6,327 nt of DNA. Source: Thermoplasmata archaeon (GTDB lineage Archaea > Thermoplasmatota > Thermoplasmata > Thermoplasmatales > Thermoplasmataceae). The DNA lies in contig JAJYDZ010000109.1 of assembly GCA_021790415.1 (NCBI GenBank), forward strand, positions 1 through 6,327, read 5' to 3'. Shown piece after piece: positions 1 to 6,327 of this stretch. The notes beneath the pieces are model-generated. The model ran no database searches. It had not been told where the DNA came from and saw nothing but the letters and a program-made list of their open reading frames with translations. Position 1 is the first letter of the stretch. Every line of letters starts with the position of its first letter. Made by a program: the position numbers and the translations under genes.

Positions 1-191
1 GTCATGTTGGCCTGCATCTTGGAAAGATGCGCATAATACACGCAAATGGAAGGCATGCCTCGGTTACAACAACAGATTTGTCGGATCAGAGTGAATATTC
101 AAAACGCCTTCTGGAGATATTCGAGCAGATAGGCAGAGTTGATATAAGATCTATAAGACTAGGAGAAAGAATAAAGAAGCGATATTCTTAA
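1..191 (+). CDS. NlpC/P60-family cysteine peptidase, C-terminal part (5' end outside window)
   Basis: Reading from base 3, the window opens inside a gene and gives 62 residues before TAA at 189-191. It begins HVGLHLGKMRIIHANGR, which matches the block around the catalytic histidine in NlpC/P60 domains (H-V-G/A-hydrophobic-hydrophobic-L-G, then hydrophobic-I-H-A). The first visible His would be the second catalytic residue; the catalytic Cys lies upstream and is not visible. Family members cleave peptide bonds in peptidoglycan stem peptides, often gamma-D-Glu to diaminopimelate, as YkfC does during murein peptide recycling. After the domain there is a charged tail of roughly 30 residues, rich in Arg and Lys, which may be an extra helix. 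The gene ends one base before the stop codon of the convergent anmK gene. The neighbours, all linked to peptidoglycan, support the call. Whether it is secreted cannot be told without the N-terminus. The motif is short, so the family is likely but not certain. Confidence 0.72.
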   Translation, partial: HVGLHLGKMRIIHANGRHASVTTTDLSDQSEYSKRLLEIFEQIGRVDIRSIRLGERIKKRYS

Positions 192-192
192 T

Positions 193-1314
193 TTACATTA
201 AGAGCTTGAATATCTGATCAAAATTTCTACCGGGAACTATCTTCCCAAGTACAGGTCCACTCATAGTCTGAATATCCGTCAATCTCCCAGCGGCGCCATG
301 TAGAGTCTGGTTTGCCAGGATAGCAAAGCCAAGGGCTTCTCTGAGATCGTCCCTGACTCCGGTACTGCTAAACGTCCTTACCTTGCCGTTAAAAAGCTCG
401 TTAAGATCCTGCATTAGAACTGGATTTTTTGTTCCACCACCTCCTACCACAATATCTGAAAACGGACTGTGAACGAACCTCTCTATCTGTTCGTGTATGC
501 TTACCGCCGTGAAACGAGTGAGTGTTCTAACCAGGTCCTCACCTCTCAGTGATGGGAATTTCCTCATGACATTTTGAAAATATTTCTTGCCGAAATATTC
601 CCGCCCGCTGTTTTTAGGAGGCTTTTTCTTAAAAAAAGGATCCTTCATAAGATATTCCAGCAACTTAGGGGAGATTGTACCGGACAAAGCTATTTGGCCA
701 TTCTTATCCATTCTTTGTCCATATATATTGAAAACTGCAAGATCAATCAACATGTTGCCAGGGCCGGTATCAAAGGCCAAAGAGCCCTTTGAGTCCAGGA
801 ATGTAACATTGGAAATCCCGCCTATATTTACTGTAAGGGTGCCAGGCTTTTTGAAGATGATATAGTCGCTCAATGCTATAAGTGGGGCTCCTAATCCCCC
901 GTATGCCATATCAGTTATCCTGTAATCTGTTATCGCCGTTTTACCAGATTTGGCCACTAAAAATGATATTTCACCAAGCTGAAGCGTGCCGTTTTCAACC
1001 TTCTCAACAGACGGTCCATGGTAGATGGTGTGCCCTGAATATGAAATCACGTCGTACTCAAGATCCATTGAAAGTACACTTTCACTTATAAACTTTCCAA
1101 GCCTGACATTTAAACGTGATATAAGTTCAGCATCAACCTTGGTATTTTCAGCTAACTTAAGAAGGTCCTCACGCAGTTTAATGGAGAATGGTTTATTCTT
1201 CCCTGACAAAATATTGTATTTAGTGTCCCGATTATAGCCATTTAACTCAATATTTGCTATACTTAGCCCATCTGTTGATGTCCCAGATACTATCGAAACG
1301 AACTTCACTTGCAA
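193..1314 (-). CDS. anmK: Anhydro-N-acetylmuramic acid kinase (AnmK)
   Basis: AnmK hydrolyses the anhydro bond of 1,6-anhydro-N-acetylmuramic acid and phosphorylates it with ATP to MurNAc-6-phosphate, a cytoplasmic step of murein recycling. The 373-residue product is of normal family length and carries the blocks in order: SGTSTDG (residues 10-16), GHTIYHGP (94-101), LQLGE (111-115), TDYR..D with GGLGAPL (129-145), NIGGISNVT (163-171), FDTGPGNMLID (181-191) with D182 as the expected catalytic base, PPKNSGREYF (232-241), TLTRFTA (264-270), GGGG..NP (291-298) and a closing VLG. Departures from the bacterial pattern are VSGTS for MSGTS, Ser for the second Asp of DGxD, and YSGHT for SHGQT. The longest start is TTG at 1314. 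GTG at 1308 gives MKFVSIVSGTS and sits about 25 nt from the centre of a TATA-like box, so 193-1308 (371 residues, leaderless) is my preferred start. It points away from the DUF218-to-lysA run but shares its theme. No MurQ etherase is visible. Confidence 0.95.
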   Translation of the reverse strand: MQVKFVSIVSGTSTDGLSIANIELNGYNRDTKYNILSGKNKPFSIKLREDLLKLAENTKVDAELISRLNVRLGKFISESVLSMDLEYDVISYSGHTIYHGPSVEKVENGTLQLGEISFLVAKSGKTAITDYRITDMAYGGLGAPLIALSDYIIFKKPGTLTVNIGGISNVTFLDSKGSLAFDTGPGNMLIDLAVFNIYGQRMDKNGQIALSGTISPKLLEYLMKDPFFKKKPPKNSGREYFGKKYFQNVMRKFPSLRGEDLVRTLTRFTAVSIHEQIERFVHSPFSDIVVGGGGTKNPVLMQDLNELFNGKVRTFSSTGVRDDLREALGFAILANQTLHGAAGRLTDIQTMSGPVLGKIVPGRNFDQIFKLLM

Positions 1315-1328
1315 CGATGTATATTTTG

Positions 1329-1337
1329 TTTATAAAA
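1329..1337 (-). promoter_or_regulatory. Putative TATA box of anmK
   Basis: Read on the minus strand this is TTTTATAAA. Its centre lies about 25 nt before the GTG at 1308 and 19 nt before the TTG at 1314. Archaeal TATA boxes centre about 26 nt before the transcription start, so the spacing favours a leaderless transcript beginning at or near the GTG. No Shine-Dalgarno sequence precedes either codon. Identified by eye only. Confidence 0.5.
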
Positions 1338-1415
1338 TTACTTCTTACAATTGAAGCAATGAAATACCGAATAGTAAAAAAGAAGATTGCGTAAGCAACT
1401 ATTATTTAGTGCAAT

Positions 1416-1423
1416 CATAATAT
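1416..1423 (+). promoter_or_regulatory. Putative TATA box of the DUF218 gene
   Basis: CATAATAT is centred about 26 nt before the ATG at 1446, the spacing expected if the transcript starts at the start codon. The match to a strong archaeal box is only moderate in this AT-rich intergenic stretch. It lies roughly 85 nt from the divergent anmK box, so a regulator bound between them could affect both genes. Confidence 0.35.
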
Positions 1424-1445
1424 CACTTTCAAGACTTCGATTTAT

Positions 1446-1970
1446 ATGAAAATTCTTGTAGTTCTTGGATGCATGCTCAATTCTTGCGCTGCAACCGAAG
1501 AAATGAAAGGAAGAGTAGAACGTGCCATTCAGTTTGCCCGCCTTGTACACCCTGAACGAATCATATTTTCTGGTGGAAAAACATCTCAAGATTGTTCTTA
1601 TTCGGAAGCAGGAATGATGAAAAAACTTGCTCTTGATATGGGCGCAGATCAAAACATCATCGAAGTCGAAGAGAAGTCAACGACCACTGTTGAAAACGCA
1701 GTTTATGTTCGAGAACTCCTTGAGAAAAGGCAATTTTTTGGTGATCTTTACATTGTAACATCTTGCTATCACTTAACAAGGGCCATTACTATTTTCAAGA
1801 TCATCATACCTTATGTGAATGCTTTTTCTGGCCTTTGTTTTGAATGCAAGCCAGAACGCCTGAAGTCAGAAGCTGAGAGGCTCATTATCGATCAGGATAT
1901 CATGTCACGAGTTTCATGGAAAGATCAGGAATGGTTGAAAAGTTATGAAAAAGTTAAGTCTTCGCTATGA
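1446..1970 (+). CDS. DUF218 (ElyC/SanA/YdcF-type) family protein, soluble
   Basis: A 174-residue protein with the DUF218 Rossmann-like layout: VVLG near the N-terminus (5-8), a conserved Arg (R23) on the following helix, IIFSGG (39-44), SEAGMM (53-58), E-x-S-x-T-T followed by E-N (76-84), and VTSCYHLTRA (104-113). In bacteria this family includes ElyC and SanA, which are linked to envelope integrity and peptidoglycan or lipid-carrier homeostasis, and the nucleotide-binding YdcF. The biochemical reaction is not settled, so I assign none. Unlike ElyC and SanA, this copy begins directly with the domain and has no signal peptide or membrane segment, so a cytoplasmic location is predicted. Five cysteines are spread through the chain (C9, C14, C50, C107, C131), with a sixth at C134. 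It opens the plus-strand run, 81 nt before the surface hydrolase gene, and is divergent from anmK. Its place among murein genes hints at a role with a sugar- or nucleotide-linked wall fragment (inference). Family call is firm; role unknown. Confidence 0.88.
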   Translation: MKILVVLGCMLNSCAATEEMKGRVERAIQFARLVHPERIIFSGGKTSQDCSYSEAGMMKKLALDMGADQNIIEVEEKSTTTVENAVYVRELLEKRQFFGDLYIVTSCYHLTRAITIFKIIIPYVNAFSGLCFECKPERLKSEAERLIIDQDIMSRVSWKDQEWLKSYEKVKSSL

Positions 1971-2022
1971 ACCAAATGCGCTATATGGTCAAGGGAGTCG
2001 TTTTTACCAATTCAAAAAATTC

Positions 2023-2035
2023 TTAAATATATAAA
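2023..2035 (+). promoter_or_regulatory. Putative TATA box of the surface hydrolase gene
   Basis: TTAAATATATAAA is the best archaeal TATA-like element in the window. Its centre is about 20-24 nt before the ATG at 2052, fitting a transcript that is leaderless or nearly so. It suggests that the hydrolase, the S13 peptidase and perhaps lysA form a transcription unit separate from the DUF218 gene. A short T-run at 2001-2005, after the DUF218 stop codon, could end the upstream transcript, but this is weak. Confidence 0.55.
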
Positions 2036-2051
2036 CTAGATTTCATGACCT

Positions 2052-3254
2052 ATGAAGTTTCTCACCCAGTCTAAGGCAATTTTTATTGTTACCTGTTTTT
2101 TAGTACTTGCACCTCTAGGAGGTGGAATCAGTCAAAGCATTCATATAAATCTGGTCTCCAAAATCCCGTCGCAAGCTAATGGCAGTTTAAAATATATACC
2201 TGCAATCCCATCTGGCTACTGTCTTTATAATTACAACCAATCTGCAGGAATTTCATATGCTCTGCTGATCCACGATAACTATTTTGGAATGGCAGAATAT
2301 CCTGCCGCAATTAATCTGTCAATAATGCAAAAGAATTTGGACTATTATAACAGTGAGGACTGTTCTCACTTTGTTTCTGAAGCTTTGATAGCTGGCGGAC
2401 TGAAGGAACTTGCTATTAATGCACCAAAGGGACCAGGTGACAACCTCACAGGATACAAAGGCGGGGAATTTGTTGGAAGCTATGGTATAGTAGGCGTCTA
2501 CAGACTGGTGAGTTACTTAGCTGGATACGTACTTCCAATCTTTTCAACAAATGCGACTGCGGAGGGAGTTCTTGGATATCAGCCTATTCCCGCATCTTTC
2601 CAAGGGTCCCCGCTTGCTTCTGTGTATTATGTTTTAAACGACAGTATGTATCCGGCTTACTATCTATCACCAGGCGATGTAATTGCAGATGGCGGTGTTG
2701 GTTCCGGTCATATCATGTATTACATAGGGAACGGCACCGTCATCCAAACTGATCCTGCAGCTGAATGGCATTATCAGCCTGGAACAGACTCAAACATCAG
2801 CTTATATGGACTCGACACTTTAAACGGGAAGAATGTTGTGGCACTTTATTTACATATTCCAACATTTCATGGGGCTAAGTCAGTCAGGATAACCGCCTTA
2901 TCTGGTGAATCGATCTTGAATCTTTCATCAAACGTAAGTGCAGGATCGAATGTTTATCTTATTGGATCTTTCCCGGATGGCGTTGGACTTGGGAATTACA
3001 CATATACCTGGACAGAGAATGGGAAGATAATTTCCAACCAACAGAATTTTACTTATCGCGTCGATGGAGGAGCCAACAACATAGAACTTATGTCTTCTGG
3101 TTCAAACGGCACAGCATATCAGAATATTACAATTTACGGAATTTCGAAAACGCCCATTTTGTCTGAGAATACTATAGATGCGTTGAGTATAACTATAGTT
3201 GTAGTTGCCACAATCGCGATTGCAGCAGTCCTAATATTGAAGAGGAGGCGCTGA
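2052..3254 (+). CDS. Secreted, membrane-anchored Amidase_6-like cysteine hydrolase with Ig/PKD-like C-terminal domain
   Basis: The 400-residue protein starts with a signal peptide: Lys at 2 and 8, then a hydrophobic core at about 9-21. Residues 60-120 resemble the Amidase_6 fold (papain/NlpC-like), with the nucleophile block NSEDCSHFVSEALIAGG (100-116; candidate Cys C104) matching the family's DCTNFVSQAL.AGG. LSPGDVIADG...GHIMYYIGNGT (205-229) supplies the candidate His H220. Such domains in bacteria are associated with cell-wall peptides or amides; the exact bond cut here is unknown. Residues 275-362 look like an Ig/PKD-type beta domain (GLGNYTYTWTENG at 312-324). A membrane segment at 377-396 followed by KRRR should anchor the protein, leaving the catalytic part outside the cell. 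Fourteen N-x-S/T sequons (first N43, last N358) fit an extracellular, glycosylated archaeal protein. It has its own TATA-like box and lies 7 nt before the S13 peptidase gene. The hydrolase fold is likely; peptidoglycan as substrate is inferred from the neighbours. Confidence 0.8.
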   Translation: MKFLTQSKAIFIVTCFLVLAPLGGGISQSIHINLVSKIPSQANGSLKYIPAIPSGYCLYNYNQSAGISYALLIHDNYFGMAEYPAAINLSIMQKNLDYYNSEDCSHFVSEALIAGGLKELAINAPKGPGDNLTGYKGGEFVGSYGIVGVYRLVSYLAGYVLPIFSTNATAEGVLGYQPIPASFQGSPLASVYYVLNDSMYPAYYLSPGDVIADGGVGSGHIMYYIGNGTVIQTDPAAEWHYQPGTDSNISLYGLDTLNGKNVVALYLHIPTFHGAKSVRITALSGESILNLSSNVSAGSNVYLIGSFPDGVGLGNYTYTWTENGKIISNQQNFTYRVDGGANNIELMSSGSNGTAYQNITIYGISKTPILSENTIDALSITIVVVATIAIAAVLILKRRR

Positions 3255-3261
3255 TAATTAT

Positions 3262-4377
3262 ATGATTAAAAATAAAAGTGACGATTTGCCATATGTTCTT
3301 TCATACAGTTTTAGACATAATGGGAAGGAGATCCAGTCTTTCAGGTCGAACCTTCCTGTACTTCCTGCTTCTAATATGAAGATTCTCACTGGTTTCTCTT
3401 CTTACAAACTTCTTGGAATGAATCATAAATTTATTACCGAGGTGAAGCAAGAGGGTAAACACATAATATTTTCAGGAGGACCATCCCCACTTCTTGATTT
3501 CAGTTCTATCGAAAGCATCACAGATTCTCTTGGCATTGGCAATCAAGACCTAGGGCATTCTGACCTTGTCATCAAAACGAGAAATAATAAAATTGATCAT
3601 CACCCGGTCAATCCTTCTTGGAATTACGATAATTCGGCATACTCATACCAACCCAAAATTACAAATTTTTCTCTTAATGAGAACTGCATACCCAAAAACA
3701 GTTCATTGCACAGCTTCACCCTCCAAGATCTTCATGAAAGAGAAGACACATTTATTCCAGCCAAGAACCCAAGGAATAACTTGAAAAATGGCATTATCGG
3801 CATAAGTTCCAAAAAGCATGAAAAGCTAGAAAAGGGAAAAGGTGGATCCGCAATTCATGCTGAAAGGTTGGGTGACATATTGGATCATATGGAGACCGTG
3901 AGCTGCAACTATTCTGCAGAGGTGCTTTTCAAATATCTTAGTTACGCAAGGACCTCGATACCCGGTTCTTGGAAAAGCTCATCAATGATTTTGGTGGACG
4001 AACTTAAAAAGTTTCTCGGGTATGATCCTCATATCTCCGTGGCAGATGGATCTGGGTTATCAAGATCCAATTTTGTCAACACTTCATTTCTCTCCGATCT
4101 CATAATGAAAATTCATCTTAAAGGGGGTGACGATTTTATACGGTGTCTTCCTAAACACGGTGTGGGAACACTGAAGAACAGGCTGAAGTCTTATCACAAT
4201 GCTTTGATTTTCGCTAAGACTGGTTCTTTAACAGGAGTGGCTGCTCTTTCCGGTTATATATATTCAATTGATACATCGTTCAGCATAATAATAAACAATT
4301 ATCTTGGCAGTGAGAAAATGACCTCTATTATTGATGATATACTAATTCAATTCCTCTCTGAAAACGAAATATCCTAG
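3262..4377 (+). CDS. dacB: D-alanyl-D-alanine carboxypeptidase/endopeptidase, peptidase S13 (PBP4/DacB type), no signal peptide
   Basis: S13 enzymes remove the terminal D-Ala of pentapeptide stems or cut D,D-crosslinks through an acyl-serine intermediate. All three active-site motifs are present: SxxK in PASNMK (S37, K40), SxN as S214-C-N216 followed by YSAEVLFKYL, and KTG at 319-321. Other S13 signatures are SGGPSPLL (71-78), W120 with SLNEN (137-141), and DGSGLSRSN (262-270). At 371 residues it is shorter than E. coli PBP4 (477 with signal). The SxxK-to-SxN distance is 177 residues against 244 there, so the inserted domains between them are reduced, while SxN-to-KTG (105 versus 111) is normal. 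The protein starts MIKNKSDDLP with no signal peptide or membrane segment, and a stop at 3238-3240 in this frame excludes a longer N-terminus, so cytoplasmic location is predicted. That is unusual, since PBP4 normally acts outside the membrane. It starts 7 nt after the surface hydrolase gene, probably cotranscribed; a GGAGG at 3243-3247 may be a distant ribosome site. A beta-lactamase or esterase activity is less likely. Confidence 0.9.
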   Translation: MIKNKSDDLPYVLSYSFRHNGKEIQSFRSNLPVLPASNMKILTGFSSYKLLGMNHKFITEVKQEGKHIIFSGGPSPLLDFSSIESITDSLGIGNQDLGHSDLVIKTRNNKIDHHPVNPSWNYDNSAYSYQPKITNFSLNENCIPKNSSLHSFTLQDLHEREDTFIPAKNPRNNLKNGIIGISSKKHEKLEKGKGGSAIHAERLGDILDHMETVSCNYSAEVLFKYLSYARTSIPGSWKSSSMILVDELKKFLGYDPHISVADGSGLSRSNFVNTSFLSDLIMKIHLKGGDDFIRCLPKHGVGTLKNRLKSYHNALIFAKTGSLTGVAALSGYIYSIDTSFSIIINNYLGSEKMTSIIDDILIQFLSENEIS

Positions 4378-4421
4378 GTTTTGGGAGAAAGATAGAATAC
4401 TTGTTCTGAAATAACCATTTC

Positions 4422-5705
4422 ATGCTCCAACGTATAATGAATCACTTTTCAAGTAAAAATGGAAATCTCTGTCTAGATGGAATGGATACCTGTGCTCTTG
4501 CTTTAAAATACGGAACTCCCCTTATCGTAACCTCTGAAAGGAGAATCAGATATAATGCTAGGAGACTAGTTAACGCAATTTCATCATTTTTCAATGACTT
4601 TGATGTAAAGTATGCAATGAAAGCTAACCCAAACCCCCGGATTCTATCCATTATCAGGTCAGAAGGACTGGGAATTGATGCCTCTTCGGAACATGAAATC
4701 AGATTAGCCTTGGAAACTGGATTCAGACCAGACCAGATATTATTTACACCAAATTATGCAAGAAGAAGTGAATTACTTTGGGCATCGTCCATTGGAATAC
4801 CGATTAACTTTGATAGTGTCAGCCAGTTTTGCCTGGTTGGAGAAAGAGTTCCGCAAACTGTCAGTTTCAGGATAAAGATAGAATACGGAAAAGGAGAATT
4901 CAAGGGCACAACCACTTCAGGGCATGATGCAAAATTTGGTATTATGGAGAAAGAAGCGGTATCTGCTTATAGAACTGCTAAAGAAGCCGGCGCAAGGAGA
5001 TTTGGTATACATGTAATGGCTGGCTCAAATGTGCTAGATACCGAACATACAGCTCGTGTAGCTGCTTCAATTCTTGAAGTGGTAAAAAAAATAACTGAGG
5101 CCAATGATATTGAGCTCAGCTTCATAGACCTAGGAGGCGGTCTTGGTGTACCTTATCAACCTGGCATCAATGAGCTGGACCTAGATGAAACCTTCAGAAA
5201 GGTACGCGACGCCTTTTCACAGATGTTCAACGGGGGAAGATTGCCAAGACTCTCAATTGAGCCGGGCAGGTACCTGGTTGCGGATTCCTCAGTACTTCTC
5301 GGATCAGTAACAGATATAAAGATGCAGGACGAGGCATTTCTTGGATCTGATATTAGCATGAATACTCTTATCAGACCTGCACTTTACGGTGCTAGGCATC
5401 ACATTGTTCTTGCTAATCGTTTGAATGATGAGATTTCTGGTAAATATCAAGTTGTGGGTCAGATTTGTGAAAACACAGATAGGATTGGAACTGACATAGA
5501 TTTGCCGGAGCCAAGGATCGACGATATATTGGCTGTGTTTAATGCCGGTGCTTATGTTGCCAGCATGGCGAGCAACTACAACGGAAGGCCTATTCCCGCT
5601 GAAGTTCTCATAAGTGATGCAGGAGAAGAGATTATTCGGTCTCCATCAACATTTTCAGACTACGTAAGAAACTATATCTTCAGCGGATCAGAGAAACAGG
5701 TCTAA
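4422..5705 (+). CDS. lysA: Diaminopimelate decarboxylase (LysA), PLP-dependent fold type III
   Basis: LysA converts meso-2,6-diaminopimelate to L-lysine and CO2. The 427-residue product has normal family length and the main motifs: VKYAMKAN with PLP lysine K67 (62-69), LGIDASSEHEI (83-93), KFGI (171-174), DLGGGLGVPY for the PLP phosphate loop (236-245), IEPGRYLVA (279-287), ICENTD with C349 and E350 (348-353), and GAYVASMASNYNGRP (376-390). The C-E pair and the SMxSxYNxRP segment are typical of LysA rather than of ornithine/arginine decarboxylases. The usual HIGSQ block is replaced by HVMAGSN (197-203), which is one residue longer and suggests a divergent LysA branch. ATG at 4422 is used; ATG at 4437 is an alternative that would lose five residues. 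The gene begins 44 nt after the S13 peptidase gene, with only a weak TATA candidate (about 4391-4400), so readthrough from upstream is likely. No other DAP-pathway gene is present. Beside murein-degrading enzymes, a role in converting salvaged DAP to lysine is plausible (inference). Confidence 0.93.
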   Translation: MLQRIMNHFSSKNGNLCLDGMDTCALALKYGTPLIVTSERRIRYNARRLVNAISSFFNDFDVKYAMKANPNPRILSIIRSEGLGIDASSEHEIRLALETGFRPDQILFTPNYARRSELLWASSIGIPINFDSVSQFCLVGERVPQTVSFRIKIEYGKGEFKGTTTSGHDAKFGIMEKEAVSAYRTAKEAGARRFGIHVMAGSNVLDTEHTARVAASILEVVKKITEANDIELSFIDLGGGLGVPYQPGINELDLDETFRKVRDAFSQMFNGGRLPRLSIEPGRYLVADSSVLLGSVTDIKMQDEAFLGSDISMNTLIRPALYGARHHIVLANRLNDEISGKYQVVGQICENTDRIGTDIDLPEPRIDDILAVFNAGAYVASMASNYNGRPIPAEVLISDAGEEIIRSPSTFSDYVRNYIFSGSEKQV

Positions 5706-5766: not shown

Positions 5767-6327
5767 CTAAAGATCAAGCACCATAATGCTGAATTCTCTT
5801 GTTATTCTGAAACCATATCTCAAATAAAGATGGGATGCCTTTTCCGAGGTCCAGAGAAAATATGCGTGTCGAATCGCATTTGCCTTCATTGCGTTTAGTG
5901 TATGAACAAGAAGCATCGTACCAATGCCCATCGATCTGTGTGCCTCGCTCACCTCAAAGCATCCAAATCGTTCTCCAGGTGCAAATTCGAAAGGACCTTC
6001 CCCTGCCGCATACATTGCATATCCTGCGAATTTATCTTTCACTTTAGCTACTGTAATCTGTTGCAAGTCGCCTTCGTTGATAACGCCACTTGCCCGGTAA
6101 AAACAGTCTGCGGGGAAATTGTTCTCAATAAATTCCAGGAATTCCTCACTCTCGTCAATCTTGAGACTCCCTATATTGACATTATTATCCTTTATTTCTT
6201 TATACCAGTGTGCGCCTATCTCTGCCTCCATGGCAATTGCAACAGAATCTTCCTTAAAACCGGCTTCACTGAGTGAATCGAATACTTCCGGATATTTTTT
6301 CCTGTCTATTCCAGGAAAGAAATAGCC
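5767..6327 (-). CDS. GNAT-family N-acetyltransferase, C-terminal part (N-terminus outside window)
   Basis: The reading frame stays open to the window edge, so the ATG at 6231 is probably an internal Met: 32 further residues precede it, including GYFFPGIDRKKYPEVFD and an EAGF segment that looks like the end of another GNAT-like half. In all 186 residues are visible. Numbered from that Met, the acetyl-CoA motif is FEVSEAHRSMGIGTMLL (92-108), with R99-x-x-G102-x-G104, followed by a helix, a strand (HAYFLWTS, 122-129) and the typical ending HLYLRYGFRITREFSIM (134-150). GNAT enzymes transfer an acyl group from acyl-CoA to an amine; the acceptor cannot be inferred. The apparent preceding half suggests a tandem-GNAT protein. 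It is convergent with lysA, 61 bp between the stop codons, and is not obviously part of the murein-related set, although acetylation of an amino sugar or amino acid cannot be ruled out. The family is secure; substrate unknown. Confidence 0.85.
   Translation of the reverse strand, partial: GYFFPGIDRKKYPEVFDSLSEAGFKEDSVAIAMEAEIGAHWYKEIKDNNVNIGSLKIDESEEFLEFIENNFPADCFYRASGVINEGDLQQITVAKVKDKFAGYAMYAAGEGPFEFAPGERFGCFEVSEAHRSMGIGTMLLVHTLNAMKANAIRHAYFLWTSEKASHLYLRYGFRITREFSIMVLDL

Follow-up and report, generated by a model that had tools for sequence, protein, structure and literature searches.

The window, by which we mean the whole 6,327-nucleotide stretch of DNA analysed here, raises the question of why gene families that serve murein breakdown, recycling and diaminopimelate (DAP) metabolism in bacteria should lie side by side in what appears to be an archaeon lacking a cell wall. 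The sequence-only reading named six adjacent families of this kind, and the analysis recovered all six in their expected places, the NlpC/P60 peptidase through its copy in the contig L002 (Table 1). The window very probably belongs to an island for peptidoglycan catabolism in acid-loving Thermoplasmata that seemingly make no murein and would import the murein of other organisms and catabolize it in the cytoplasm. Gene content, family membership, clustering and archaeal genome context can be read directly from the sequences, and the pathway is what we infer from them. The genes do not form a single operon, because the AnmK and GNAT genes are on the minus strand.

Table 1. Genes of the window, with positions, strands and main evidence
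Feature	Position	Strand	Evidence
NlpC/P60 peptidase with SH3, C-terminal 62 residues	3..191	+	94% identity to L002 copy
AnmK-family anhydro-sugar kinase	193..1314	-	PF03702, E 6e-76
DUF218 protein	1446..1970	+	PF02698, E 3e-23
Secreted, C-terminally membrane-anchored Cys-hydrolase (predicted)	2052..3254	+	Cys/His set, predicted fold
S13 (PBP4-type) DD-peptidase, short form	3262..4377	+	PF02113, E 3e-34
LysA, diaminopimelate decarboxylase	4422..5705	+	TIGR01048, 333.9 bits
GNAT acetyltransferase, cut at window edge	5767..6327	-	PF13508, E 3e-8

The kinase scores 256.3 bits with PF03702 (gathering score 24), contains the motif FDTGPGN and reaches 372.9 bits with NCBIfam PRK09585.3-2, 14 bits under the cut-off of 387; because this equivalog cut-off is missed, we name it an AnmK-family kinase rather than the AnmK equivalog, and it is predicted to convert anhMurNAc to MurNAc-6-phosphate. 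The NlpC/P60 fragment retains the His region, the Cys lying outside it, and by itself gives no match in Pfam; it aligns with the C-terminal end of its L002 counterpart. That protein carries PF00877 (NLPC_P60, E 1e-22) and weak SH3_3/SH3_16 matches, and a PDB search gave entry 3h41, an NLP/P60 family protein, at E 7e-15. We take this peptidase to be YkfC-like, and it is predicted to act as a cytoplasmic L-Ala-gamma-D-Glu/DAP endopeptidase. The S13 protein (119.2 bits) shows the motifs SNMK 37, SCN 214 and KTG 319, and LysA, predicted to convert meso-DAP to L-lysine, exceeds the TIGR01048 cut-off of 297.9 bits. The DUF218 protein has no signal peptide and only an ElyC-like match far under the cut-off (E 4e-7); its gene recurs in the fetched stretches of 13 of 21 relatives.

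The protein described in the sequence-only reading as a secreted Amidase_6-like hydrolase keeps an invariant Cys/His set and a predicted NlpC/CHAP-like fold in its catalytic domain, but the Amidase_6 assignment itself falls under the Pfam cut-off (PF12671, 15.8 bits, E 0.015; gathering score 23.2; 19 and 16.5 bits in two relatives). Its layout comprises an NlpC/CHAP-like domain at about residues 50-272, an Ig/PKD-like domain at 274-365 and a C-terminal TM helix. The full-length fold search gave only the Ig/PKD-like domain among the matches listed, and the catalytic domain was therefore predicted and searched separately; Foldseek with this domain alone returned nothing with an E value of 0.001 or lower. 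Judged by its modelled fold, the protein probably represents a new family of extracellular peptidoglycan hydrolases, and a group of proteins without a Pfam assignment is put forward for this function.

The window ends before MurQ, which is found in relatives: the two named Thermoplasmata MAG contigs, L001 and L002, continue the locus with genes for a SIS/NagB-II-like protein, NagA, MurQ, a beta-lactamase-fold protein, NagZ, an Ala-Glu epimerase and NamZ, as well as an Opp-type ABC transporter. In L001 the SIS, NagA and MurQ genes lie on the side that corresponds to DNA left of window position 1. We mapped this neighbourhood in fetched stretches from 21 genomes (10-60 kb, often ending with the contig, which makes absences weak), among them 18 of the 20 NamZ genomes, with G037 and G182 left out. 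All 11 core functions occur together in five of the 21 genomes and at least seven in 16, and the six control stretches hold none or one each; G002:C44 and G065:C18, which were chosen for holding a MurQ or AnmK match, score 1 (MurQ or a weak epimerase match) and the other four 0. The sets in G113 (4/11), G082 (3/11) and G041 (2/11) are partial, at least to some extent because contigs or stretches end; MurQ and LysA in G041, and LysA in G065, lie on the same contig beyond the fetched stretch. In G076, four genes located by genome-wide searches fall within 12 kb of one 2.23-Mb contig. MurQ, NagZ, the epimerase and the transporter, all of which were looked for, thus share one neighbourhood in relatives; the gene set is conserved, while the gene order, whose conservation had been named as a check, varies. 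This co-location of 11 core functions, together with dN/dS values of 0.06-0.28 between the window and L001 (five genes tested), indicates that the clustering is not due to chance. Across 400 genomes of the class, MurQ is present in 19 of the 20 NamZ genomes (Fisher p 2e-28), counting only MurQ matches over the cut-off (22/400 genomes); a threshold of E 0.001 gives 357/400, mostly other SIS proteins by score.

The assignments within the extended island differ in strength, several enzymes scoring under their NCBIfam cut-offs. MurQ of L002 passes PRK05441 (304.5 bits, cut-off 168) and misses TIGR00274 (263.8 bits, cut-off 302). MurQ and NagZ align with solved bacterial enzymes through the active-site regions, including the Glu positions of L002 MurQ; we presume that these Glu residues are catalytic and that the active-site residues of both enzymes have the corresponding roles. 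NagA is over the cut-off of TIGR00221 (254.8 bits). The SIS protein has GlmS C-half and NagB-II/GlmD matches under cut-off and may be a GlcN-6-P deaminase, by family only; the BadF-type kinase (PF01869) is NagK-like, below cut-off, and the best NCBIfam match of the beta-lactamase-fold protein, PBP4B, is far below its cut-off. Among the island proteins tested, a strongly hydrophobic N-terminus occurs only on the SBP, the permeases and the Cys-hydrolase; NagZ, NamZ and the beta-lactamase-fold protein have none (three copies of each), and whereas PBP4/DacB is an exported enzyme, none of three S13 copies has a hydrophobic N-terminus. Because they carry no such N-terminal stretch, S13, LysA and NlpC should be cytoplasmic.

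The genes suggest what looks like an almost complete pathway, the individual steps of which are known from bacteria. The surface Cys-hydrolase would cut bacterial wall material, and the Opp/Dpp-type ABC transporter, whose specificity is not readable from sequence, would bring in muropeptides. In the cytoplasm, GlcNAc and MurNAc would be taken off by NagZ and NamZ, the peptide would be freed or trimmed by the beta-lactamase-fold enzyme, S13 (plus LdcA in some genomes) would remove D-Ala, and NlpC/P60 would separate L-Ala-D-Glu from DAP; the epimerase would then yield L-Ala-L-Glu, and LysA would turn meso-DAP into lysine. MurNAc-6-P is predicted to come from AnmK, acting on anhydroMurNAc, and/or from the BadF-type kinase; MurQ would convert it to GlcNAc-6-P and D-lactate, NagA would produce GlcN-6-P, and the NagB-II-like SIS protein would produce fructose-6-P. 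Foreign walls salvaged in this way would supply both central metabolism and lysine.

The earlier proposal of a catabolic route (cutting, trimming, phosphorylation, DAP to lysine) thereby gains support as an interpretation, with misfits in the DAP genes. We compared 20 carriers, the union of 11 genomes with AnmK (searched order-wide) and 17 from the order with NamZ (found in the 400-genome class sample), with 97 others among 117 order genomes, of which a few non-carriers may be misfiled. LysA occurs in 20/20 carriers and 36/97 others, and LdcA, which had also been named as a component to look for, in 13/20 and 47/97 (genome-wide; p 0.22); neither is specific to carriers, and LdcA is no discriminator, although it lies near NamZ/LysA in G050 and G055. 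DapB is found in six carriers (G032, G037, G050, G055, G082 and G113, the match in G113 being a 113-residue open frame) and in 9/97 others; some of these carriers might make DAP precursors, which runs against the simplest salvage story. Ddh was over the cut-off in none of the 117 genomes, its one match under the cut-off being in the carrier G066.

Several known systems resemble the island in part. The ykfABCD genes of Bacillus subtilis encode an epimerase, LdcA, YkfC and a transporter part; the island shares with them the Ala-Glu epimerase, NlpC/P60 with SH3, the Opp-type transporter and, in G050/G055, a nearby LdcA, and differs in joining this peptide branch with the amino-sugar branch. We take ybbC to encode NamZ, and AmiE to have the beta-lactamase fold. 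Passages of PMC5061867 describe the B. subtilis cluster murQ-murR-murP-amiE-nagZ-ybbC, which likewise unites MurQ, NagZ, a NamZ-type protein and a beta-lactamase-fold enzyme. The archaeal host, however, lacks the tested murein-synthesis domains, and AnmK and BadF sugar kinases are found instead of a MurP/MurR-like gene, none of which was found among the scanned island genes. According to the same passages, AmiE and NagZ are extracellular in B. subtilis, whereas the archaeal NagZ and beta-lactamase-fold enzyme are predicted to be cytoplasmic; because these two and NamZ have no hydrophobic N-terminus, we file the island as a variant of this type rather than a member. The Escherichia coli operon murQ-murP-yfeW (PBP4B), described there as well, likewise has MurQ with a PBP4B-like neighbour (the match of the archaeal protein being far below cut-off), but the island shows no PTS transporter and brings far more functions together.

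Scavenging of muropeptides is described for Tannerella forsythia in excerpts of PMC6448482, PMC5388701 and PMC7670621, and this heterotroph likewise uses muropeptides of other bacteria; it needs MurNAc for its own wall, whereas these archaea apparently have none, so that their use of it should be nutritional. Peptidoglycan-degradation genes are also mentioned for the Aenigmarchaeales (DPANN) in a passage of PMC9939782 citing Vigneron 2022, that is, for archaea of another lineage and with no gene set given in that passage. We found no description of the Thermoplasmata gene set in the open literature searched, nor a paper on NamZ+AmiE+NagZ or on archaeal peptidoglycan recycling with NamZ; the available portions of PMC9939782, PMC9162777, PMC7511781 and PMC5814848 do not describe the pathway in Thermoplasmata.

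L001 is only 9.9 kb long, but that the contig is chimeric, or bacterial and wrongly placed in an archaeal MAG, is barely credible. A large share of the genes turns up again in the fetched genomes, and two of the contigs that carry the island, of 2.23 and 1.94 Mb, approach the size of a whole genome; EF-1A/S10/EF-2 adjoin the island in G085 and EF-2 in G084 (recognized by inspection of their sequences). Five proteins of the window share 83-89% identity with those of a named Thermoplasmata MAG, the AnmK identities to the two named MAG contigs being 84% and 89%. For the relatives we reject contamination on the strength of recurrence in 21 genomes, the two large contigs and the adjacent archaeal translation genes; through these relatives the assignment of the window to a Thermoplasmata archaeon is supported, as the archaeal layout had suggested. 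We regard it as highly improbable that the archaeon recycles a wall of its own or some polymer resembling murein, although bacteria use the same enzymes on their own walls (PMC5061867, in excerpt). Mur ligase and transpeptidase domains each occur in one of the 117 order genomes (G026, a non-carrier), and SEDS and DapF in none; none of these four domains was found in any carrier of the order. One carrier appears to be Cuniculiplasma divulgatum S5, a cultured archaeon, and this species is cell wall-deficient and S-layer-deficient according to passages of PMC5155288. Own-wall recycling is rejected because the Mur ligase, transpeptidase and SEDS domains are absent from the order carriers.

We consider it improbable that the kinase really serves levoglucosan or another anhydrosugar and that the genes around it are a loose assortment for scavenging sugars and peptides. 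Levoglucosan kinase is its best PDB match (E 4e-47; the AnmK match has E 3e-41), and the missed equivalog cut-off points the same way; yet MurQ, NamZ, NagZ and NagA adjoin the kinase gene, and we know of no role of MurQ and NamZ outside MurNAc chemistry. Nor does the pathway hang on AnmK, since eight of the nine carriers without it (of 20) have MurQ over the cut-off. Antibacterial use, in which neighbouring bacteria are lysed by the surface hydrolase and the remaining enzymes clear away the products, so that the archaea graze rather than purely scavenge, is a possibility that we regard as rather unlikely. The hydrolase is predicted to be secreted and membrane-anchored with a CHAP/NlpC-like fold, and bacteria-killing archaeal peptidoglycan hydrolases, with homologues prominent in Thermoplasmata's phylum Thermoplasmatota among others, are reported in the accessible text of PMC12352652. 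The present enzymes are likewise archaeal and predicted to act on bacterial murein, but those, which combine a catalytic with a wall-binding domain, are treated there as weapons, whereas nearly all of ours are predicted to be cytoplasmic and catabolic. The C-terminal domain of the Cys-hydrolase is Ig/PKD-like and may or may not bind wall; AnmK, MurQ, "recycling" and "catabol" are absent from the main text of that paper. Moreover, no copy of the hydrolase was found in 11 of the 21 fetched stretches, and in a twelfth, L001, it is a relic; in G065 the secreted family has a member, P0143, on the same contig outside the fetched stretch.

Murein is among the most abundant bacterial polymers. Building on import and cytoplasmic catabolism, we tentatively propose, while holding it somewhat doubtful as a whole, that these wall-less Thermoplasmata are murein eaters, perhaps grazers: a new surface-anchored NlpC/CHAP-like family would open walls, glycosidases that are exported in bacteria such as B. 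subtilis would act in the cytoplasm, murein would become fructose-6-phosphate, D-lactate, acetate and amino acids, and where DapF and Ddh are missing from the genome LysA would make lysine from wall meso-DAP, leaving the archaea dependent on bacterial walls for an amino acid. C. divulgatum S5 is reported in part of PMC5155288 to have no complete lysine pathway. A murein-eating pathway in archaea that make none would form a nutritional link between archaea and bacteria, could partly account for LysA where DapF is lacking and would suggest why acid-mine archaea live as scavengers; the island in the apparent C. divulgatum S5 makes such a pathway directly testable in culture.

A tree of AnmK sequences (98 rows, mostly unlabelled) does not point to a particular donor. 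The clade of the window includes Caldivirga and G076; a second, well-separated clade comprises G084 (whose row fills 45% of the columns only), G085, G154, G168 and G039. Two of the branches, G065 and G039, are long and cannot be placed with certainty. The window yielded no match in an Rfam search and no tandem repeats with TRF, and its 21 sigma-70 promoter sites, against 16.6 expected (sd 4.7), leave a bacterial sigma-70 promoter reading unsupported. The GNAT gene lies next to LysA/S13 in L001 and G115 as well, and has a dN/dS of 0.062 between the window and L001. By eye, AT-rich TATA-like stretches can be seen upstream of the AnmK gene and of the gene starting at position 2052.

The sequence-only reading described the window as a peptidoglycan-salvage cluster in a seemingly wall-less archaeon, and all six families it named were recovered in place by open reading frames and family scans. 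For the truncated first gene, 62 residues are insufficient alone, and the NlpC/P60 label is based on the full-length protein of a relative, locus L002, which has a PF00877 match along with weak matches to bacterial SH3 domains. An Rfam scan of the window gave no match.

Genes of the window and the basis of their assignment
Feature	Position	Strand	Basis
NlpC/P60 protein, last 62 residues	3-191	+	94% identity to L002 protein end
AnmK-family kinase	193-1314	-	ORFs and family scans
DUF218 protein	1446-1970	+	ORFs and family scans
400-residue protein, hydrophobic N-terminal segment and C-terminal TM helix (predicted secreted Cys-hydrolase)	2052-3254	+	ORFs and family scans
S13 DD-peptidase	3262-4377	+	ORFs and family scans
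LysA	4422-5705	+	ORFs and family scans
GNAT acetyltransferase, cut	5767-6327	-	ORFs and family scans

An AnmK scan of genome contigs returned two loci, L001 (89% identity; Thermoplasmata MAG FK5.bin124) and L002 (84%; Candidatus Thermoplasmatota MAG FK_Sedi_A_Bin.85). The dN/dS values between the window and L001 (AnmK 0.098, DUF218 0.280, S13 0.098, LysA 0.141, GNAT 0.062) argue that these five genes are maintained by selection. Collinear with the window, L001 extends beyond it with NlpC/P60, a SIS protein, NagA, MurQ and a partial beta-lactamase-fold protein; its secreted Cys-hydrolase gene is a short relic of the C-terminal domain (3776-3996) between S13 and DUF218, with intact neighbours. 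L002 adds, on one side, a CocE/X-Pro peptidase-like protein, NagZ, an L-Ala-D/L-Glu epimerase-like enolase and NamZ, and on the other a five-gene Opp/Dpp-type ABC transporter. The partners that a salvage route had been expected to have, MurQ, NagZ, the epimerase and an oligopeptide-type transporter, are all present in L002, and MurQ also in L001. Among the best curated NCBIfam matches, NagA is above cut-off, MurQ is above that of PRK05441 and below that of TIGR00274, and NagZ (191 versus 207), the epimerase (243 versus 500) and the beta-lactamase-fold protein (nearest PBP4B, 124.5 versus 385) fall below; the SIS protein resembles the GlmS C-terminal half and NagB-II/GlmD deaminases, below their cut-offs. 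A 253-residue metagenomic protein (P0207), annotated NlpC/P60 plus SH3, aligns with the secreted family along 17% of the query and is possibly a fusion or an assembly chimera. A GNAT family accompanies LysA/S13 in several genomes (the window, L034 2664-3548 and L067 12608-13486).

AnmK occurs in 11 of the 117 genomes of the order and NamZ in 20 of 400 genomes sampled from the class. MurQ, counted only above cut-off (22/400; at E 0.001, 357 match, by score mostly other SIS proteins), shares 19 genomes with NamZ (Fisher p 2e-28, assuming that both draws are the same 400 genomes, as their handles suggest); NamZ stands without MurQ in G082, and MurQ without NamZ in G003, G125 and G146. Surroundings fetched for 11/11 AnmK and 18/20 NamZ genomes, together 21, were scored for 11 core functions (S13, LysA, NlpC, SIS, NagA, MurQ, beta-lactamase-fold, NagZ, NamZ, epimerase and DUF218). 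Five genomes hold all 11 (G050, G084, G085, G097, G115), and others hold 10 (G055, G065, G076), 9 (G002, G066, G114), 8 (G001, G154), 7 (G038, G039, G168), 6 (G030, G032), 4 (G113), 3 (G082) or 2 (G041), so that eight or more occur in 13 of the 21 genomes and seven or more in 16; the window holds four. Six control stretches from carriers (the 20 genomes of the order with AnmK or NamZ) scored 0, 0, 0, 0, 1 and 1, and both scoring 1 had been fetched for a MurQ or AnmK match there. In G076, searches of the whole genome placed four genes inside a 12.1-kb segment of a 2.23-Mb contig (uniform-placement chance ~6e-7). The expected conservation of the neighbourhood thus holds for the clustered gene set and fails for gene order, which varies among genome groups; the cluster therefore withstands rearrangement. 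One locus, L033 (G114:C51), is a mosaic in which NlpC, SIS and NagA share 91-94% identity with G002, against 60% for AnmK and 53% for the transporter SBP, which suggests recombination at the AnmK/NlpC junction. G002 carries a second MurQ, above the TIGR00274 cut-off, immediately after another Opp-type ABC transporter (L025, G002:C44, 8047-14741), and further second high-scoring copies occur in G055, G125, G154, G168 and G182.

Judging from flanking genes and contigs, the hosts of these islands are archaea rather than bacteria, as the window had suggested. The island begins directly after EF-1A, S10 and EF-2 in G085 and after EF-2 in G084, and lies close to S24e-like and RpoE-like genes in G115 (all named by reading translations, not by search); in G076 and G050 it lies inside near-genome-size contigs (G076:C1, 2,226,687 bp; G050:C1, 1,938,699 bp). 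The G076 AnmK matches P0051, filed at NCBI under 'uncultured archaeon IX51_09220'. About 7 kb from the G085 island, the archaeal contig G085:C17 carries a HEARO RNA (RF02033, 117 bits; L029 6839-7067, minus strand). The murein-synthesis search comprised the Mur ligase N-domain, transpeptidase and SEDS. No carrier matched any of the three among the 117 genomes of the order, which bears out the predicted lack of Mur ligase and transpeptidase; these absences are read in genomes without reported completeness, two carriers being near-genome-size contigs. SEDS was found in 0/117, and the other two domains in one non-carrier, G026 (transpeptidase twice). The models work, since 10 of 14 control genomes, all bacteria, match in each search. 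The G026 matches, on C127, C118 and C158 of a genome without AnmK, are perhaps bacterial contamination in the bin.

Gene content, clustering, the relatives' host and the absence of the tested synthesis domains are established here; from family membership we infer each reaction and the import step. Murein fragments would be imported and then converted by the enzymes to fructose-6-phosphate, D-lactate, acetate, alanine, glutamate and lysine. DUF218, which lacks a signal peptide in the window and occurs in 13 of the 21 fetched stretches, has no step in this scheme. The AnmK label is among the least certain of the set, because among solved enzymes levoglucosan kinase comes nearest and the score falls narrowly short of the equivalog cut-off; AnmK is missing from 9/20 carriers, eight of which have MurQ.

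LysA acts on meso-DAP. It was found (E 0.001) in 20/20 carriers versus 36/97 other genomes (p 5e-8), above cut-off in 19, the remaining one (G113) being cut by a contig end. Since the enzymes that normally supply meso-DAP are absent, with DapF in 0/117 genomes (9/14 controls match) and meso-DAP dehydrogenase above cut-off in 0/117 (one weak match, G066; 2/14 controls match), imported murein would be an attractive source of DAP for the carriers' LysA. It is not the whole story: DapB occurs in 15/117 genomes, six of them carriers, and there are LysA-positive non-carriers. LdcA, the other expected partner, is present in 13/20 carriers but also in 47/97 others and is therefore no discriminator.

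A strongly hydrophobic N-terminal stretch was seen only in the substrate-binding protein, the permeases and the secreted Cys-hydrolase (Kyte-Doolittle 2.1-2.7 versus at most 1.4 for the rest, a simple hydrophobicity measure rather than a signal-peptide predictor); NagZ, NamZ, NlpC/P60, S13 and the beta-lactamase-fold protein lacked one in three copies each. Unlike B. subtilis, whose AmiE and NagZ are described as acting extracellularly (PMC5061867), these archaea therefore probably import first and digest later.

The enzyme families are those of known bacterial murein-recycling clusters, such as E. coli murQ-murP-yfeW and B. subtilis murQRP-amiE-nagZ-ybbC (PMC5061867), and muropeptide scavenging is described in Tannerella (PMC6448482). 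Archaeal peptidoglycan hydrolases have been presented as weapons, with Thermoplasmatota among the prominent phyla (PMC12352652, whose main text does not contain AnmK, MurQ, 'recycling' or 'catabol'), and peptidoglycan degradation genes in Aenigmarchaeales are cited in PMC9939782. Searches of the open-licence literature turned up no paper describing a pathway of this kind for Thermoplasmata; what appears new is a bacterial-type catabolic set of known families in an unexpected host.

One carrier, G050, appears to be a cultured organism, Cuniculiplasma divulgatum S5, which makes the pathway testable and its interest high. The G050 island stretches have a GC of 36-37%, and that of C. divulgatum S5 is given as 37.3% (PMC5155288). 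C. divulgatum is described as an S-layer-deficient scavenger with an incomplete lysine pathway (PMC5155288, whose main text does not contain 'peptidoglycan' or 'murein') and as having no bona fide S-layer by cryoET (PMC12448462). By Pfam, the G050 island comprises two BadF kinases, SIS, a NagA-like amidohydrolase, a MurQ-type SIS protein, NagZ-like GH3, NamZ, a beta-lactamase-fold protein, an epimerase-like enolase, NlpC, LysA, S13, LdcA, CocE, DUF218 and an SBP_bac_5 protein. The order-wide search found no AnmK in G050, where a BadF kinase may substitute for it. The same island (L066 9324-16692) carries a TrmB-type regulator, a GH31 glycosidase and an SBP_bac_1 sugar ABC transporter, a possible sugar-uptake branch. 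Outside the class, a Caldivirga AnmK (46% to the window's, within its clade) and a MurQ in a Conexivisphaerales archaeon (P0052, P0056, P0057 and P0318 together) indicate that the pathway may exist beyond Thermoplasmata.
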